A stretch of DNA of 64,000 bases from Myxococcus landrumus. GTDB lineage: Bacteria; Myxococcota; Myxococcia; Myxococcales; Myxococcaceae. The stretch spans positions 1,810,001 to 1,874,000 of the forward strand of contig NZ_CP071091.1 in NCBI RefSeq assembly GCF_017301635.1, in the 5' to 3' direction. The number at the start of each line of letters is the position of its first letter. Position 1 is the stretch's first letter. The position numbers were made by a program, and so were the translations under genes. Below the pieces are notes generated by a model. That model searched no databases, had not been told where the DNA came from, and saw only the letters and a list, made by a program, of their open reading frames with translations. This document shows, piece after piece, positions 6,088 to 13,162 of the stretch.

Positions 6088-6284
6088 GTGCGGGGTCAGA
6101 TGAGGCTCGGGCCAGAGGGAGACGCAGTGTCACGTGCTGGGGCCCGACGAGCGAAAGGACGCACCCGACAACGGGGCTTCTGGACGATGGCCAGCACGGC
6201 GGTCTATGGGGGGTGTTCGGGTCCTTGGGTTTTCGTCGGAACGTCACGACAGCGGGCGCTGCAGCGCCAGGGAATGCACGAGCG

Positions 6285-8255
6285 ATGCGTTTATTCCATG
6301 TGAGTGTATTGCTGCTGACAGCTCCCCTCTGGGGCTGCAAGAGGGAGACCAATTCCACCGAAGGCGTCGTCCGGGTCTTCATCTCCTATGCGACGTTCAA
6401 GCCGAAGTGCCTGACGCTCGTCGTGGAGGACACTCAGAACCCTTCGAACAAGCGGGACACCTTGGTGCAGGTGGAGCCCGACCGCGTGAGCGACATGCGC
6501 ACCGGCGTCATCCTCGAGCAGAAGGGCTGGAGCCGGAACCTGCGCGTGACAGCCCGCGCCCACGAACGCACGTGCGAGGGACCCGTCATCGCACTCCAGT
6601 CCTCGACCGTGCTCTTCCCGGAGAAGGACGTCACGGACGTCACGCTGGACCTTCGCGCCGAGGACCTCGATGGCGATGAGTACTTCGCGAACAAGGGCCC
6701 CTATCCGGGAACGGACTGCGACGACTCACAGTCTGGCGTCAACCCTGGAGCCCAGGAGGTTTGCGACGGCATCGACAACAACTGCGCCGCGGGTGAGAGC
6801 GATGTCGGTGGCAACACCGAGTACTGGGTGGACGCGGACGGAGACACCTATGGCGATGCGGCGAGCCCCTCGGCCCGCGCGTGTGGCGCACCTCCGGGTG
6901 CCGCGCTTCGCGGCGGTGACTGCAACGACAGGGACGCCGCCATCCACCCTGGACAGGCGGAGCTCCTCTGTGATGGCAAGGATGACAACTGCAACAACGT
7001 GGCGGATGATGCCCCATTCGACGTAGGCGCCATCTGTCACACGGCCCAGCTCTGCGAGGGCCGCACGGCGTGCCAGGGAGCCACCGCCTCCACGTGCATC
7101 AGCACGGAGGTGCCCGTGCCGTACTTCGCGGACGACGATGGCGATGGGAACTCCGGGCACCCGGTCGGAGAGGCCTGCGCGGCGCCGGAACCCGGTGCGA
7201 CTCGCGAGCAGACCGACTGCGATGAGGGGACGGTGTTGGCGTCGAGGACCGTGCCCACCGAGACCTGTGACCGGTTGGACAACAACTGCAATGGCCAGAC
7301 AGACGAAGGGATCGCGGGATGCAATGCGGTGGCGTGGAGTCCAGCGCCTTCGCCTGGGCTCGGCGGCACGCGATTCGACGCGGTCGCCACCTATGCCAAG
7401 GGCCGCGGATGGATCGCCGGTGACAACAAAGTGGTGCGCATCGAGAACAACACGCTCTTCCCCGTCGCGAGCTGTGACAGCGGTGCCGAGTGGAGATCCG
7501 CCTGGGCCGCGAGCAACGGGCGCGTGTTCCTGGGATCGAGCAATGGCCAGTTCGGAACCATGGCCCCGGGTGGTGAAGCCACGCCCTGCGTCCAAGAGGC
7601 GAGCACCTTCACCGGAGCCATCTACGGGCTGATTGGCTTCGAGCAGGGCAACGGAGACATCATCCTGTACGCGGCCACCGGGCAGGGTCGAATCCTGCGG
7701 TGGCGGTACGTCCCCGGCGCGGCGAATCAAGAGGTTCCGACCTCGGTCACCCAGGTGTCGGCGAACCTTCGAGCCATCCATGGCTTGGGTCCTGAGTCAC
7801 TGATCGCCGTGGGCGCGGAGACCGTCGGCGGACAGCAGCGGCCCGTGGCCTTCCGCGCCCCCGCGAGCGGCAGCACCACCTGGGTTCGCGAAGAACTGGG
7901 TGTCCCCGATGCCACCGGGTTCCTGACGGGCGTCCGGGTCCTGACGCAGCGGCTGGTCTATGTCTCGGGCGACGATGGCTTGCTGCTCGAGAAGACTCGC
8001 AACACGTGGACCCGCAAGCCGCCCCTGATTCTGTCCAGCGGAAGCCAGCCAACCATCCGGTCCCTCGCGGCGTTCGGACGCACCGCCATCTACGCGGTGT
8101 CCTCGGAAGTGAATGACATCCACTTCTTCAATGGCTCCGCCTGGTCCAGCGTCACCACTGCGCCCCAGACACTCAACGCCCTGGGAGGCTCGGGCCCCGG
8201 AGACGTCTGGGCCACTGGTCATAGCGGCACACTTCTTCGCTGGACTCCTCCGTGA
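6285..8255 (+). CDS. MopE-like putative metal-binding lipoprotein
   Basis: The ATG at 6285 is preferred over an upstream in-frame GTG at 6213 because it gives a clean lipoprotein signal peptide (lipobox PLWGC). The 656-residue product has three repeats of the type D.DGD(x)n..DC(D/N)...CDG.DNNC at roughly residues 125-350. This is the putative metal-binding motif named after the copper-binding MopE of Methylococcus, common in myxobacterial surface lipoproteins. The second half (about 370-656) is rich in short Gly/Ser/Trp strands and probably folds as a beta-propeller. Metal type and role are unknown. It is divergent from the efflux operon and ends 18 bp before the Mla-type operon. Confidence 0.8.
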   Translation: MRLFHVSVLLLTAPLWGCKRETNSTEGVVRVFISYATFKPKCLTLVVEDTQNPSNKRDTLVQVEPDRVSDMRTGVILEQKGWSRNLRVTARAHERTCEGPVIALQSSTVLFPEKDVTDVTLDLRAEDLDGDEYFANKGPYPGTDCDDSQSGVNPGAQEVCDGIDNNCAAGESDVGGNTEYWVDADGDTYGDAASPSARACGAPPGAALRGGDCNDRDAAIHPGQAELLCDGKDDNCNNVADDAPFDVGAICHTAQLCEGRTACQGATASTCISTEVPVPYFADDDGDGNSGHPVGEACAAPEPGATREQTDCDEGTVLASRTVPTETCDRLDNNCNGQTDEGIAGCNAVAWSPAPSPGLGGTRFDAVATYAKGRGWIAGDNKVVRIENNTLFPVASCDSGAEWRSAWAASNGRVFLGSSNGQFGTMAPGGEATPCVQEASTFTGAIYGLIGFEQGNGDIILYAATGQGRILRWRYVPGAANQEVPTSVTQVSANLRAIHGLGPESLIAVGAETVGGQQRPVAFRAPASGSTTWVREELGVPDATGFLTGVRVLTQRLVYVSGDDGLLLEKTRNTWTRKPPLILSSGSQPTIRSLAAFGRTAIYAVSSEVNDIHFFNGSAWSSVTTAPQTLNALGGSGPGDVWATGHSGTLLRWTPP

Positions 8256-8273: not shown

Positions 8274-8972
8274 ATGGACCTCCGCGCGGCAGCCGTGACT
8301 GTGAGGCATGGTGCGCGCACGGTACTTTCGGACGTGAGCTGTGAGGTCCCTCCCGGAACGCAGGCACTCCTGCTCGGGCGTTCCGGCGCGGGGAAGACGA
8401 CCCTGCTGAAGTCACTGGCGGGGCTCGTCATCCCCTCCCTTGGACACATCACCTGGGATGGCCAGGACGCGGCTCACCTGTCCTCCGCTGAGCGCCGCAC
8501 ACGGCAAGCGGCCTTCGGCATGGTGTTCCAGACCGACGCGCTGTTCGACTCGCTCACCGTGCGACAGAACGTCCTGTTTCCGCTGGTCCGCCGCCACGTG
8601 CCCACCGCCGAAGCGGAGGCTCGCGCGGATGAGGTGCTTCGCGCCGTGGGCCTGGAAGCCGCCGCGGACACGCTTCCGGAGCGACTGTCCGGAGGCATGA
8701 AGAAGCGCGCGGGCATCGCGCGAGCCCTCGCGGCGAGGCCCTCGGTGTTGCTCGCGGATGACCCCTTCGCCGGACTGGACCCGGGAACCGCCCGACAAGT
8801 GGCGCGGGTGCTGCTGGAGGTCTCCCAGGGCGGAACCCTCCTCGTCGCCGCACCCGAGGCACCGCTGGACCTTCCCCTTCCCCGCTGGCTCTACCTGCGC
8901 GGCGGTCAGCTCATCCACGACGGGGCTCCCGCTCCCGCGCTGGAGCATGAACACGACGAGGTGCTCGCATGA
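8274..8972 (+). CDS. mlaF: Mla-type ABC transporter ATPase 1 (degenerate catalytic residues)
   Basis: First gene of a five-gene lipid-transport operon. The 232-residue ATPase has a normal Walker A (GRSGAGKT, 35-42), Q-loop (Gln86) and signature (LSGGM, 138-142). Its Walker B reads VLLADD, so Asp163 stands where the catalytic Glu should be, and no His occurs in the switch region (about 185-200, LLVAAPEA). Established knowledge of ABC ATPases says these residues drive hydrolysis, so its own Walker A/B site should be weak or inactive while its signature can still serve a partner. It overlaps the permease gene by 4 bp. MlaF assignment rests on the neighbouring MlaE and MCE genes. Confidence 0.88.
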   Translation: MDLRAAAVTVRHGARTVLSDVSCEVPPGTQALLLGRSGAGKTTLLKSLAGLVIPSLGHITWDGQDAAHLSSAERRTRQAAFGMVFQTDALFDSLTVRQNVLFPLVRRHVPTAEAEARADEVLRAVGLEAAADTLPERLSGGMKKRAGIARALAARPSVLLADDPFAGLDPGTARQVARVLLEVSQGGTLLVAAPEAPLDLPLPRWLYLRGGQLIHDGAPAPALEHEHDEVLA

Positions 8973-9775
8973 CCCCGTCGCCGAAGCCAGAGTCGCCCGA
9001 GTTGAATGCACTGCGCGGTGTCGGCGGCCTGGGACTCGAAGCGGTCCGAGGCACCGGCGCGCTCGCCCTGGTCGCGGCTCGCACGGTCCTGGGCCTCCCG
9101 CGATTGGAGCGCCGTGAGCTGACCCGTGCGCTGGTGCAGTTCGGCTACGACTCCCTTCCTCTCGCCATGGCCACGGCGGCGCTCGCGGGCGTCATCGTCG
9201 TGCTGCAATCGGGCCTCTACATCCAACGCTTCGGCGCGCGTGCCTTCCTCGGGTGGGCCTCGGGGTATGGCGTGCTGTGGGAGTTCGGTCCGCTGCTGCT
9301 CGGCCTCATCATGTCCGCGCGCATCGGCGCCAGGAACGCGGCGGAGCTCGCCACCATGCAAGTCGGCGGGCAGATCGAGGGACTCCGGGGAATCGGGCTG
9401 GACCCCTTCGCCATCCTCGTGGCTCCGCGCGTGGTCGCCATGGAACTGAGCATGCTCGCGATGAGCACCTTCACGTTCATGGTCGCCATCCTCTTCGAGT
9501 CCGTGGCCGCCCTCTTCACCCTCGACCTTCCCCTGCGAACCTTCTTCGGGACGTTCGCGCACATGCTGAGCCCGCTCGACATCGCGGGGGGTGTGGTGAA
9601 GACCGGAGTCTTCGGACTCGCCATCTCCCTGGTGTCCACCGCGGTGGGGCTCTCCGCGAGAGGCGGTGCCCAAGCCGTGGGCCGCGCGGCGGCGAGCGCC
9701 GTGGTCCAGAGCTGCGCCGCCATCTTCGTCCTCGACTTCGTGCTCACGCTCCTGCTCGCGGGGTGGATGGCATGA
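8969..9775 (+). CDS. mlaE: MlaE-family permease 1
   Basis: Inner-membrane permease of the MlaE/YrbE family, 268 residues, with an N-terminal interfacial helix and about five transmembrane segments. The family core is visible as VLWEFGPLLLGLIMSARIGARNAAELATM, here about residues 97-131, which carries the conserved Gly, Ala and Glu of the coupling region. The operon encodes a second, distinct MlaE-type permease immediately downstream (9772), overlapping by 4 bp. Canonical MlaE forms a homodimer; two genes here suggest a heterodimer. Confidence 0.9.
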   Translation: MTPSPKPESPELNALRGVGGLGLEAVRGTGALALVAARTVLGLPRLERRELTRALVQFGYDSLPLAMATAALAGVIVVLQSGLYIQRFGARAFLGWASGYGVLWEFGPLLLGLIMSARIGARNAAELATMQVGGQIEGLRGIGLDPFAILVAPRVVAMELSMLAMSTFTFMVAILFESVAALFTLDLPLRTFFGTFAHMLSPLDIAGGVVKTGVFGLAISLVSTAVGLSARGGAQAVGRAAASAVVQSCAAIFVLDFVLTLLLAGWMA

Positions 9776-10518
9776 ACCGGGTGCTCTCGTTCTTCGGCGC
9801 CCCCGTCGTCCTCTTCGCGCGCACGACCCGCGCTGGAGCACGCGAGGGCGTCTCCTGGCGCGAGTGCATGGTCCAGCTCCATGAACTCGGCGGGCGCAGT
9901 GTGTGGCTCGTGATGTCGGGCATGGCGTTCTTCGGAGCGGTGCTCGTCACCATCGCGAACAGCCAGGCACGCCGGTTCGTGGGCAACGTCGCGGTGCTCG
10001 GGCCCGCCTACTTCGAGCTGCTGATTCGAGAGCTCGGCCCCGTCGTCTCCGCGCTGCTCACCGCCTCCCGCGCGGGCGCCGGCCACGCCGCCGAGCTCTC
10101 CACCATGAGCGTGAATGAGCAGGTGGAGGCCCTCGAGATGTCCGCGGGAGACCCGTACTCGGACCTGGTGGCGCCTCGCGTGGTGGCCGGACTGCTGGGC
10201 GTTCCACTCCTCAGCACCCTCGGAACCGTGGCGGCGACGTTGTCAGCGGTGGCCGTCGCGGGGATTGCGTTCGGCGTGGATGGGCGAGCCTTCATGGACC
10301 CTCGCTATGTGGACGGCTGGGACTTGCTGGCCGCGGGGCTGAAGGCCGGAGCCTGTGGCCTCTACATTCCCCTCGCCGCCGCAGTGGCCGGCCTGAGGGC
10401 ACGAGGTGGCGCCGAGGCCGTCGGCGCGGCGACCACCGAGGGCGTGGTGACCGCGAGCCTGGGCTGTCTGTTGATTGACTTCGCCGTCTCCCTCGCCTTC
10501 CAGCTCCTGCGCCTGTGA
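9772..10518 (+). CDS. mlaE: MlaE-family permease 2
   Basis: Second MlaE/YrbE-type permease, 248 residues. The start at ATG 9772 overlaps the stop of the first permease, although the frame is open far upstream. The conserved core appears as ELGPVVSALLTASRAGAGHAAEL, close to the classical MlaE sequence. It then has EQVEALEMSAGDPYSDLVAPRVVA, the usual cytoplasmic segment that contacts the ATPase. It differs clearly from the first permease, so the pair is not a recent duplication. The next gene starts with a GTG overlapping its stop. Confidence 0.9.
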   Translation: MNRVLSFFGAPVVLFARTTRAGAREGVSWRECMVQLHELGGRSVWLVMSGMAFFGAVLVTIANSQARRFVGNVAVLGPAYFELLIRELGPVVSALLTASRAGAGHAAELSTMSVNEQVEALEMSAGDPYSDLVAPRVVAGLLGVPLLSTLGTVAATLSAVAVAGIAFGVDGRAFMDPRYVDGWDLLAAGLKAGACGLYIPLAAAVAGLRARGGAEAVGAATTEGVVTASLGCLLIDFAVSLAFQLLRL

Positions 10519-11273
10519 CGCCAGACACTTCCACCGCGACCAAGGAAGACACGCTCCGCTTCACGGACGTGCGCGTCGCGTTCGAGCAAGGCCGGCGCGT
10601 GCTCGACGGGATGACGGCGGAGGTCTCCACGCGTGAGTTGACGTTCATCGCGGGAGCCAGTGGCTCGGGCAAGAGTGTGCTGTGCCGGATGGCCGTGGGG
10701 CTGCTGCGCCCGGACTCCGGAAGCGTCGAGCTGTGGGGCGAACGCGTCGACACCCAACCCGAGCGGGAGCTGGTGCGCTTGCGGCGCCGCGCGCCCTATC
10801 TCGTGCAAGGCCCTGCCCTGCTCGACTGGCGCACGCTGCGAGAGAACGTGCGACTGGCGGACCCAAGCGCGGCCGAGGACGCCGTGGAGTCCGCGCTCGA
10901 ACAGGTGGGGCTCCTCGAGTGGGCGGACCGGCTGCCGCCCGAGCTGGGCCCCGGAGCCAAGAAGCGCACGGCCATCGCGCGAGCCCTGGTGTTGAAGCCG
11001 CGCTACCTGCTCCTGGACGAGCCCACCACGGGGCTCGACCGGCGCGCGGCATCACAGGTGGAAGAGGTCCTCTCGTCCCTGAAGTCACAAGGGCTGGGCG
11101 GGCTGGTGGTGACTCATGACTACCGCCAGCTCCGTGGACTGGCGGACCGAGTGCTGGTCGTGGCCCAGGGGCGCTGTGCCTACCTGGGTCCCCCTGAAGG
11201 TTTCCTGGAGTCCTCCGCGCCGGAGCTCCAAGTGCTGACGGCGCCGTTCATGGAGGGTGCGACGGATGGATGA
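10515..11273 (+). CDS. mlaF: Mla-type ABC transporter ATPase 2 (degenerate signature motif)
   Basis: Starts at GTG 10515, overlapping the permease stop. The 252-residue ATPase has a normal Walker A (GASGSGKS, 47-54), Q-loop (Gln98), Walker B with catalytic Glu (YLLLDE, Glu169) and switch His201 (VVTHD). The signature reads LGPGAKK (144-150) instead of LSGGQ/M, losing the Ser and Gly that contact the gamma-phosphate across the dimer. The defect is complementary to that of ATPase 1. A dimer of the two would hold one intact site (this Walker A/B with the partner's LSGGM) and one degenerate site. Confidence 0.88.
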   Translation: MTPDTSTATKEDTLRFTDVRVAFEQGRRVLDGMTAEVSTRELTFIAGASGSGKSVLCRMAVGLLRPDSGSVELWGERVDTQPERELVRLRRRAPYLVQGPALLDWRTLRENVRLADPSAAEDAVESALEQVGLLEWADRLPPELGPGAKKRTAIARALVLKPRYLLLDEPTTGLDRRAASQVEEVLSSLKSQGLGGLVVTHDYRQLRGLADRVLVVAQGRCAYLGPPEGFLESSAPELQVLTAPFMEGATDG

Positions 11274-12276
11274 GCGACGGTTGGAATTGAAGGTGGGTGC
11301 CCTGGTGCTGGCCGCGGTGGTGGGCGTGCTGGTGCTGCTGTGGCTGATGGGAGAGCTGACACTGGGCTCGACCTCGCTGCTGGCCGTGGACTTCGGACAC
11401 ACGGGCAACGTGGTCGAGGGTGCCCCCGTGAAGCTCGCGGGTGTCCAGGTGGGCCGGGTCCAGGCCATTCGATTGATGCCGGAGCGGAGGGATGCTCGCG
11501 GTCAGCCGCTCCCGGTGCGCATGGAGCTGGCCGTGGACCCGTCGTCGCAAGGGGCCCTGCGCGCGGATGCGCGGGTGACGGTGGCGACCGTGGGCCTCCT
11601 GGGCGAGCCCTACCTGGAGCTGAATCCCGGAACACAGCCCGCCCCACTACCAGCCGGCGAGGCGCTGCGAGGCGTCGATGCACCGCGCCTGGACGTGCTC
11701 GCGGAGAAGCTCTCCGGCTTCGTCGAGACCATCTCCGCCATGCTGGAGAAGGACCCGGAGGCGGTGACGGACCTGGTCTCCAACGTGTCTCGTTTGACGA
11801 GGACGTTGAACGAGCTGCTCGCGGAGAACAAAGGCGACGTGAAGGTGCTGGCGTCCGAGCTGGCCGCGGCGTCGAAGGACTTGCGACACCTCGCGCAGCT
11901 CGCCCGAGAGGCCATGCAACCCGGAGGCAAGGCCGCGAAGCTGCTCGATGACGCGGCCGCGACGGCGGCGGTGCTGAGAAGTGACCTCCCGGGCCTGACG
12001 AAGTCCGCGGGGACGACGTTGGACGGGCTCGCCGCCGTCACGGGCGCGCTGACGCCCGAGGATGGTCAACGCGTGAAGCTGGCCCTGGAGAAGCTCACCT
12101 CGGCGGCGGGGCAACTGGACTCCATCGCCACTCGGGCGGACCGGGTCCTCGCGCGGATTGAGGCGGGTGAAGGCACGGTCGGCTCGGTCCTTCAGGACCC
12201 CACGCTCTACAACGAGCTGCGCACACTGGTGACAGACCTGCGCAAGCACCCGTGGAAAATGCTGTGGAAGGACTGA
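11266..12276 (+). CDS. mlaD: MlaD-like MCE-domain substrate-binding protein
   Basis: Inner-membrane-anchored periplasmic lipid-binding subunit. ATG 11266 is chosen because a GGAGGG ribosome site sits at 11252-11257 with good spacing; a GTG nine bases earlier would overlap that site. The 336-residue protein has one N-terminal transmembrane helix (about 11-32), one MCE domain (about 40-130, with NVVEGAPVKLAGVQVGRV) and a long helical C-terminal region (about 145-325). This matches the MCE proteins that form a ring with a helical extension. It overlaps ATPase 2 by 8 bp. No MlaB-like STAS protein or MlaC-like carrier is encoded nearby. Confidence 0.9.
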   Translation: MDERRLELKVGALVLAAVVGVLVLLWLMGELTLGSTSLLAVDFGHTGNVVEGAPVKLAGVQVGRVQAIRLMPERRDARGQPLPVRMELAVDPSSQGALRADARVTVATVGLLGEPYLELNPGTQPAPLPAGEALRGVDAPRLDVLAEKLSGFVETISAMLEKDPEAVTDLVSNVSRLTRTLNELLAENKGDVKVLASELAAASKDLRHLAQLAREAMQPGGKAAKLLDDAAATAAVLRSDLPGLTKSAGTTLDGLAAVTGALTPEDGQRVKLALEKLTSAAGQLDSIATRADRVLARIEAGEGTVGSVLQDPTLYNELRTLVTDLRKHPWKMLWKD

Positions 12277-12349
12277 CGCGGCCGAGTAACGAATACAGCA
12301 CGATTGCGACAGGTTGACTTCCGTCGGGTTCAGGCGCTTCGTTCCGGCC

Positions 12350-13162
12350 ATGTCCTCACCGTCCCACCCTGCTGGGTGGCCCCAATGGGCCCAGGCGATT
12401 CCTCCGGAACCCGACGAGCACGTCTTCGAGACGGGCGGCACGTACGTGCTGGCGTACCTCTTCGCGCTCCTGTTCTCGCTCCCCCTGCTCATCACCATCG
12501 TGGTGCCCCTCGTCGCCATCTGGTTCTTCTGGGGCAGGTCCGGCCGGTTCCTCCTCACCAGCCACCGGCTCATCTGGAATCCCCACATGGGGAAGAAGGT
12601 CATCATTCCTCGCGAAGCGCTGCGAGGGCTGGAGATTGACGTAGGGACCCGCATGAGGAGCGTGAGCTTGCGCGGAGCCCAGAAGCTCACGATGCCCTTG
12701 CTGTGGCGCTACAAGAAGCTCTGGGGTGGACTGCTGTTGCTTCAGCGCTGGCAGCCGCCCAGCACGACGTCCGCGACCGCGGCCTTCAAGGTAGTCGCGG
12801 GGTGGCGAGTGTCCGGCCTGCAGGTCCAACCCGGCGCCGTGGTCATCCTGCGAGACAGCGTCCGCTTCCTTCCCGAGGAGCCCTCCGCGAACGTGGCCGT
12901 GGAAGGAGGGGCGGCGATGGCCGGGCTGATGTTGGGCGTCACGTATCGCTCGCATCGGGCCCAACTGCCGGTGGTGAGCGCGCTCGCACAGGTGGCCCGC
13001 GCCCAGGAGCCGCAGTCCGAACTCGACTCCTTGCAGAGGCTCGTGAGCGGTGAGACGTGGCAGGGCCCTCCCGCGAAGCAGGGCCCCGCGGGCAAGGGAC
13101 GGACACGCGTGACCTACCAGGAGGGTCCTCGGAAGCTGACGTTCGTCGTTCCAGCGGAGTGA
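12350..13162 (+). CDS. Membrane protein with a PH-like domain
   Basis: Not a protein I recognise by name. From ATG 12350 it has 270 residues: a Pro-rich N-terminus, a strongly hydrophobic stretch (about 34-62) giving one or two membrane passes, then FLLTSHRLIW followed by an Arg/Lys-rich beta region. That segment resembles the start of bacterial PH-like (bPH) domains, which often sit beside membrane segments. A Gly/Ala-rich hydrophobic stretch near residue 190 and an Arg-rich C-terminus follow. A TTG 36 bases earlier is an alternative start; neither start has a strong ribosome site. It follows the Mla-type operon by 73 bp and might be cotranscribed. Confidence 0.6.
   Translation: MSSPSHPAGWPQWAQAIPPEPDEHVFETGGTYVLAYLFALLFSLPLLITIVVPLVAIWFFWGRSGRFLLTSHRLIWNPHMGKKVIIPREALRGLEIDVGTRMRSVSLRGAQKLTMPLLWRYKKLWGGLLLLQRWQPPSTTSATAAFKVVAGWRVSGLQVQPGAVVILRDSVRFLPEEPSANVAVEGGAAMAGLMLGVTYRSHRAQLPVVSALAQVARAQEPQSELDSLQRLVSGETWQGPPAKQGPAGKGRTRVTYQEGPRKLTFVVPAE

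Follow-up and report, generated by a model that had tools for sequence, protein, structure and literature searches.

Complementary ATP-site losses in a five-gene MCE operon of Myxococcus landrumus suggest an asymmetric ATPase heterodimer

The 64,000-nucleotide stretch of the Myxococcus landrumus genome analyzed here (contig NZ_CP071091.1, positions 1,810,001 to 1,874,000; hereafter the window) contains an operon of five genes with overlapping ends at 8274-12276 on the forward strand. Its gene order is ATPase 1, permease 1, permease 2, ATPase 2, and MCE protein, and each ATPase lacks motifs that the other retains. The question raised by this locus is whether the two ATPases serve separate transporters or combine in a single motor with one working ATP site and one defective site. 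Our findings make it very probable that the operon encodes one MCE lipid transporter in which a predicted ATPase heterodimer, with one canonical and one degenerate site, is joined to a predicted permease heterodimer.

Motifs and folds of the two ATPases

ATPase 1 (8274-8972, forward strand) is a MlaF-like nucleotide-binding domain (NBD) of 232 residues assigned to Pfam ABC_tran. Its LSGGM signature is intact at residues 138-142; the position of the catalytic Glu is occupied by Asp163, within D162-D163, and the H-loop region GGTLLVAAPEAPLDL contains no His. In ATPase 2 (10515-11273, forward strand; an NBD of 252 residues with a GTG start, Pfam ABC_tran, overlapping permease 2 by 4 nucleotides), the catalytic Glu169 and the switch His201 are present, and LGPGA stands at residues 144-148, where LSGGQ or LSGGM would be expected. 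The Walker A Lys and the Q-loop Gln were found in both proteins, which share 35% identity. An earlier note on this DNA had described ATPase 1 as carrying Asp163 and an intact LSGGM without a switch His, and ATPase 2 as carrying Glu169 and His201 with LGPGA in place of LSGGQ; these residues and coordinates proved exact for both.

The numbering also agrees with that of characterized MlaF, an alignment that the note had proposed. We take E170 of E. coli MlaF to be its catalytic Glu, which places the catalytic position at the signature start plus 25; by the same rule, it falls at residue 163 in ATPase 1 (138+25, Asp) and at residue 169 in ATPase 2 (144+25, Glu). Excerpts of the literature on E. 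coli MlaF locate its LSGGM signature at residues 145-149 and report that an E170Q mutant fails to rescue.

AlphaFold2 single-chain models have a mean predicted local distance difference test (pLDDT) score of 90.7 for ATPase 1 and 92.6 for ATPase 2. Both match the MlaF chain 7ch8_J as one of many tied NBDs (ATPase 1: Z 28.4, root-mean-square deviation 2.3, 231 aligned residues; ATPase 2: Z 29.2, root-mean-square deviation 2.1, 235 aligned residues), and MlaF chains also appear among the sequence matches, tied with other NBDs; being matches of single-chain models, the fold matches carry no evidence about the dimer. The ratio of nonsynonymous to synonymous substitution rates (dN/dS) was 0.08-0.22 for ATPase 1 of the window against eight Myxococcaceae orthologues and 0.12-0.18 for ATPase 2 against Myxococcaceae orthologues. 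Both ATPases are under purifying selection. Decay into a pseudogene was ruled out by this dN/dS range of ATPase 1, the confident fold, and the conservation of the residues across the family; a one-genome oddity was ruled out by the same pattern in many relatives.

Complementary losses in relatives

Composite ATP sites were assigned from the head-to-tail NBD dimer described in excerpts of the MlaF literature. Site 1 combines the Walker motifs of ATPase 1 with the signature of ATPase 2, and site 2 combines the Walker motifs of ATPase 2 with the signature of ATPase 1. We scored 107 sequences of ATPase 1, 99 of ATPase 2, and 13 MlaF-type controls. SGG is kept in 107/107 ATPase 1 sequences, and the Glu and/or the His is lost in 106 of the 107; ATPase 2 keeps both Glu and His in 99/99 and SGG in 0/99. 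All motifs are intact in the controls (13/13).

Both ATPases are present at 78 scored loci, namely 32 from Myxococcaceae, 5 from other genomes of the phylum, and 41 from a wider genome scan. Site 2, consisting of the Glu and His of ATPase 2 and the SGG of ATPase 1, is intact at 78/78 loci, in agreement with the earlier note, which had described it as fully canonical. The signature of site 1 is broken at 78/78 loci, and Glu and His are both lost from this site at 36 of them, His only at 29, Glu only at 12, and neither at 1, i.e., there is some loss at 77/78. The residue pairing that the note had suggested looking for in other myxobacteria is thus far more widespread than one genome. Its description of site 1 as fully degenerate holds for the signature; however, Glu or His survives in many relatives, and the broken signature is the sole constant. 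Within the family, alignments of 20 sequences each showed SGGM, D162, and D163 to be invariant in ATPase 1 and E169 and H201 to be invariant in ATPase 2, whose signature is LGPG or VGPG in the rows from the family apart from a single VSPA (L051).

On a tree of ATPase 1 built without the motif columns, the Glu/Asp state requires 7 changes, His/no His requires 3, and the combined state requires 9. For ATPase 2, 5 and 11 changes are needed at signature positions one and two, respectively, against none for Glu/His. Site 1 has thus been altered repeatedly, through different residues in different lineages, and site 2 is whole in everything scored. A quick combined tree of the ATPases (LG+G4) required two changes to account for ATPase 1 and one to account for ATPase 2 (support 65); each ATPase class may have arisen once.

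The counts leave out fragments of 180 residues or fewer, exact duplicates, L283, taken to be the same contig as L126, and the unrelated minus-strand LolD-like ATPases L227, L264, and L285. The Myxococcaceae rows comprise 32 chosen loci plus nine that add ATPase 1 only; ATPase 1 of L113, which was split in the search, was left out, its parts reading DDP with no His. The controls, chosen after their residues had been seen, are 12 ATPases adjoining one MlaE gene and L137, which has no MlaE gene in the stretch examined. L290 and L294-L296 were counted as controls by gene content; L138, L140, L143, L144, and L155 have the same residues and were left out, and L297 and L298 lie outside the counts.

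Co-occurrence, joint absence, and unlinked ATPase 1 genes

The permease 2 profile has matches at E <= 1e-40 in 74 of the 96 genomes belonging to the window's family. We searched the remaining 22, which lack permease 2, with the ATPase 1 and ATPase 2 profiles, which scored part of the first-look candidates in most genomes (e.g., 127/301), with G060 as a positive control. The control reached 363.7 bits for ATPase 1 and 377.9 bits for ATPase 2; its second-best ATPase 1 match scored 200.8 bits, and scores up to about that level are therefore regarded as the background of related ATPases. No ATPase 1 match exceeded 199.1 bits in any of the 22 genomes, and no ATPase 2 match exceeded 183.3 bits in 21/22. 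Both ATPases are missing in 21/22 genomes.

Beyond the family, a search of 147 genomes from the other families of the class (E <= 1e-40) detected relatives of permease 2 in nine, and a search of 195 genomes from the phylum's other classes (E <= 1e-45) detected them in seven. ATPase presence across the phylum was not judged by score alone, because canonical MlaF and ATPase 1 scores overlap outside the family. The complete order ATPase 1, permease 1, permease 2, ATPase 2, and MCE occurs in L110, L111, and L112. Nine genomes have no ATPase 1 adjoining permease 1; in G190, G156, and G194, the contig stops close upstream. In 9/9 of these, the best match of the ATPase 1 profile is an orphan gene that keeps SGG and has no switch His, with no MlaE gene seen in the stretch examined. 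The residue standing for the switch His is Asn in L129, L131, L132, L134, and L135, Thr in L133, and Ala in L128, L130, and L136. Three small genomes of 2.9-3.0 Mb (L106, L107, and L108 in G141, G142, and G140, respectively) carry the permease pair without ATPases or an MCE gene in the stretch examined and have orphan ATPases elsewhere; for two of these genomes, the ATPase 1 profile search also picked up an orphan ATPase 2 whose signature is broken (L152, L154).

The wider genome scan retained 80 loci, out of 553 confirmed relatives. Most of these 80 are in metagenome-assembled genomes (MAGs) titled Myxococcota, Myxococcales, Polyangiaceae, or Deltaproteobacteria, and they include Sorangium cellulosum So0157-2 (L247), Polyangium (L236), Oligoflexales (L269), and Bdellovibrio sp. 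(L293). Their ATPase 2 signatures are mostly LGDG, LSDG, IGDG, or FGDG. Their ATPase 1 sequences fall into two combinations, Glu retained with Ser in place of His or Asp with His retained, apart from one with Asp/Ser and that of Bdellovibrio sp. with Asp/Asn. One MAG titled Klebsiella pneumoniae (L252) has a permease that scores like permease 2 of the operon family, and its title is probably wrong.

The search for unlinked genes also allowed a prediction. As predicted, the best ATPase 1 profile match is an orphan gene in both Sorangium cellulosum So0157-2 (L298) and Polyangium y55x31 (L297), each with LSGGQ, DEP, and Ser for His. An unlinked ATPase 1 without the switch His is thus the best match elsewhere in 11/11 genomes tested. 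Because the prediction held in Sorangium and Polyangium, we place more confidence in a heterodimer and less in a pair of homodimeric transporters.

Proposed transporter and alternative explanations

In the arrangement that we propose, the core would be pseudo-twofold, with one copy each of permease 1, permease 2, ATPase 1, and ATPase 2, and the single MCE protein would form a ring, probably a homohexamer. The Walker A and B motifs of ATPase 1 and the signature of ATPase 2 would constitute the degenerate site, which would bind ATP, hydrolyze it slowly or not at all, and act as a clamp or allosteric site. The canonical site would be formed by the Walker A and B motifs, Glu169, and His201 of ATPase 2 together with the LSGGM of ATPase 1 and would carry out turnover, consuming one ATP per cycle. 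The substrate is likely a lipid, judging by family membership. The heterodimer put forward in the earlier note is supported by the confinement of the defects to one composite site at 78/78 loci, the co-occurrence of unlinked ATPase 1, and the joint absence of the genes; the physical heterodimer, its stoichiometry, the permease-ATPase contacts, single-site hydrolysis, the substrate, and the direction of transport are inferences. The counts, co-occurrence, and joint absence match the trace expected of selection on an obligate heterodimer in which one site is degenerate.

The same evidence bears on the alternatives. The operon could encode two independent homodimeric transporters that use the MCE protein in common, one pairing (ATPase 1)2 with permease 1 and the other (ATPase 2)2 with permease 2, as each permease is a full MlaE domain, each ATPase is a full NBD, and the Mla complexes described in the available excerpts have MlaF homodimers. 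However, both sites of an ATPase 1 homodimer would be without Glu and/or His, both sites of an ATPase 2 homodimer would have broken signatures, and decay acting independently on the two would not be restricted to one composite site at 78/78 loci. Such an arrangement gives no reason to expect the repeated alteration of one site with the other left whole; moreover, the genes are absent together, and Mce1, according to excerpts of that work, provides a solved example of a permease heterodimer. We consider two homodimers very unlikely. ATPase 1 might instead be a noncatalytic regulator or a remnant outside the core NBD dimer, with an ATPase 2 homodimer working despite its unusual signature, and the encoding of ATPase 1 away from the permeases in some lineages would agree with this. 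Yet its signature, kept in 107/107 sequences, is useful only if it completes the site of another subunit, ATPase 1 and ATPase 2 are under selection of about equal strength, and the unlinked ATPase 1 accompanies the system in 11/11 genomes tested, which makes this explanation scarcely credible.

A heterodimer in which both sites hydrolyze ATP, with Asp163 and the altered signature tolerated as tuning without functional asymmetry, is the least improbable of the alternatives, although still unlikely. Many relatives keep Glu, with only the His and the signature changed, and sites with Glu-to-Asp changes seem able to hydrolyze ATP slowly (PMC7756269, in excerpt). By a disabled site, we therefore mean one too slow to drive transport. 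Against hydrolysis at both sites, the signature is altered in every scored ATPase 2, and loss of Glu or His has been added repeatedly in that site and never in the other.

Besides this residual activity of Asp sites, several observations weigh against an asymmetric heterodimer or limit the counts behind it. As to random restoration of the motifs in homologues, which the earlier note regarded as contrary evidence, the defects are confined to site 1 at 78/78 loci, and two cases stand out. Among Myxococcaceae, G004 (L115) alone carries His in the H-loop column of the alignment (AAHDAPPEL), with Asp still at the catalytic position, and L111 (G146) is the sole scored locus with both Glu and His in ATPase 1, its ATPase 2 reading VGPG; this locus may be close to an early stage. 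Near-identical pairs (e.g., L233/L237) are counted among the 78 loci, and the class profiles include the motif columns, which makes the class calls partly dependent on the motifs, though they agree with gene position where the genes are linked. At 24/80 loci of the wider scan, no ATPase 1 was found in the stretch examined, and 10 of these have no ATPase of either class there; several of the 24 stretches are short, and L292 shows one permease only. The search for orphan ATPase 1 genes covered the genomes of 3/24 such loci (L236, L247, and L283, taken to be G189). In the orphan ATPase 1 L128 (G141), a TAA stop interrupts the profile match and the protein ends at AAADG, either through truncation or through an error of assembly; among the loci that the ATPase 1 profile returned for G141, no ATPase 2 was recognized, no ATPase 2 profile search having been made. 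In G094 (89% complete, 650 contigs), an ATPase 2 fragment lies at a contig edge (244.9 bits), and profile searches found neither an ATPase 1 nor a permease 2 orthologue. Finally, the heterodimer is predicted from sequence comparison.

For the relatives as a whole, we favor, with more reserve than for the operon itself, a broader interpretation of the asymmetric heterodimer. Myxococcota and some Bdellovibrionota-like relatives would share a distinct, old class of MCE transporters with obligate permease and ATPase heterodimers, and selection would keep exactly one of their ATP sites disabled, the site having been broken repeatedly via different residues. Single-site turnover would then be a selected trait, and one hydrolysis per cycle would be enough for lipid movement.

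Operon organization and neighboring genes

In operon order, the Pfam families are ABC_tran, MlaE, MlaE, ABC_tran, and MlaD, and the genes overlap by 4, 4, 4, and 8 nucleotides from 5' to 3'. Permease 1 (8969-9775, forward strand; 268 residues) and permease 2 (9772-10518, forward strand; 248 residues) are of the MlaE/YrbE type; the ATG of the former overlaps the stop codon of ATPase 1 by 4 nucleotides, and the latter overlaps permease 1 by the same length. They match PF02405 with E-values of 1.4e-52 and 3.2e-44 (178.8 and 151.5 bits, respectively, vs a cutoff of 22.5) and are 35% identical to each other. The permease 2 family profile matches solved MlaE and YrbE1A/YrbE1B chains.

The MCE protein (11266-12276, forward strand; 336 residues; 8-nucleotide overlap with ATPase 2) matches PF02470 (E 8.4e-16, 58.4 bits vs a cutoff of 25.1). 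Its single MCE domain spans residues 39-122 and is followed by about 200 more residues to the C-terminus; the protein falls below the cutoffs of TIGR00996 and TIGR04430 and shows weak matches to solved MlaD and Mce chains. The range 8274-11273 given in the earlier note spans the other four transporter genes but ends before this fifth one. Outside the family, L217, L219, L222, L230, L232, and L291 have two MCE genes of unequal similarity, and the MCE ring could be mixed in these relatives.

The operon is interrupted in three genomes: by about 6 kb between the two permeases in G005 (L116, 1044-7115), by about 2 kb between permease 2 and ATPase 2 in G012 (L118, 7525-9666), and by about 1.2 kb between ATPase 1 and permease 1 in G047 (L120, 5514-6746). 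In the window, an open reading frame at 6213-8255 on the forward strand ends 18 nucleotides before ATPase 1, and its product has three Cu-binding MopE motifs (PF11617). Several family loci (e.g., L069, L070, L073, L035, and L046) have a relative immediately upstream of ATPase 1, and this gene may be part of the same unit. Downstream of the MCE gene, the open reading frame at 12314-13162 (forward strand) has no Pfam match at E 0.01; of L006-L074, many of which end short of the corresponding position, only L069 has a stretch of 65% identity after the operon.

Comparison with known systems

By its domains (MlaE, MCE, and a MlaF-like ATPase), the operon fits an MCE/Mla-type lipid transporter, lipid transport being predicted. 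It is not MlaFEDB sensu stricto, as it has two permease and two ATPase genes and misses the NCBIfam cutoffs: ATPase 1 scores 123.8 vs 441 bits for NF008809 (MlaF), and the permeases score 100.2 and 120.9 vs 315 bits for NF033619 (MlaE) and 141.8 and 132.8 vs 212.2 bits for TIGR00056 (MlaE). Pfam searches of the five operon proteins gave no match to the STAS (MlaB-type) family and no MlaB, MlaC, or MlaA; the rest of the genome was not searched.

According to excerpts of PMC9882608, PMC7367683, PMC7790496, and PMC10665443, MlaFEDB is MlaF2E2D6B2, with one permease and one ATPase in two copies each, and Mce1 places a YrbE1A/YrbE1B permease heterodimer on a MceG homodimer, with six Mce proteins. 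The homodimeric ATPase that the earlier note attributed to the described MlaFEDB complexes is confirmed in these excerpts and extends to MceG. The operon resembles MlaFEDB, a type VIII ATP-binding cassette (ABC) MCE phospholipid transporter (E. coli 6xbd, P. aeruginosa 7ch8), in its MlaE-type permeases, MlaF-like NBDs (LSGGM in ATPase 1), and MCE protein; unlike MlaFEDB, it has, at the gene level, two different permeases and two different ATPases with complementary motif losses. With mycobacterial Mce1 (8fed), it shares two different YrbE-type permeases, whereas Mce1 has one ATPase, MceG, and six Mce proteins in place of two ATPases and one MCE gene. A structure in which the two halves of an MCE transporter are distinguishable, as they should be here, would bear on the direction and stoichiometry of MCE lipid transport. 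The source genome (10.37 Mb, one contig) has two further MlaE genes (L001, L002), each adjoining an ATPase with LSGGM, Glu, and His, and these canonical-MlaF loci make symmetric and asymmetric motors comparable on the same permease fold.

Two different NBDs also cooperate in Opp/Dpp-type pairs (Rv1281c and DppD of Mycobacterium tuberculosis), in EcfA/A' of ECF transporters, and in PhnK/PhnL of C-P lyase, and such chains are among the sequence or fold matches of the two ATPases; these pairs, however, work with different permease families or none. Among the titles and abstract openings listed by our search of the open-access literature, with subscription papers and bioRxiv outside its scope, none dealt with a heterodimeric or degenerate ATPase in an MCE/Mla system. 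An asymmetric motor is known from other ABC types and, as far as we found, seems not to have been described for MCE transporters.

The closest parallel to the motif pattern is offered by the asymmetric ABC transporters (TAP/ABCB2-B3, TM287/288, and the ABCC family), in which the signature is altered in one NBD and Glu is changed to Asp, often with an H-loop change, in the other. Those are other transporter types, whereas here the motor is paired with MlaE/YrbE permeases and an MCE protein. In human degenerate sites, as excerpted from PMC7756269, the signature is changed in all, Glu-to-Asp is the second most frequent change, and an H-loop change is often added; the operon family follows the same rule. 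ABCG5/G8 is heterodimeric as well, but its pattern differs in that the Walker A Lys is changed (same source, in excerpt). As in the asymmetric ABC transporters, the losses in the two ATPases are complementary and fall in one composite site, with the other intact, at 78/78 loci, and the same site is disabled by at least three residue combinations in a bacterial lipid-transport class of another ABC type.

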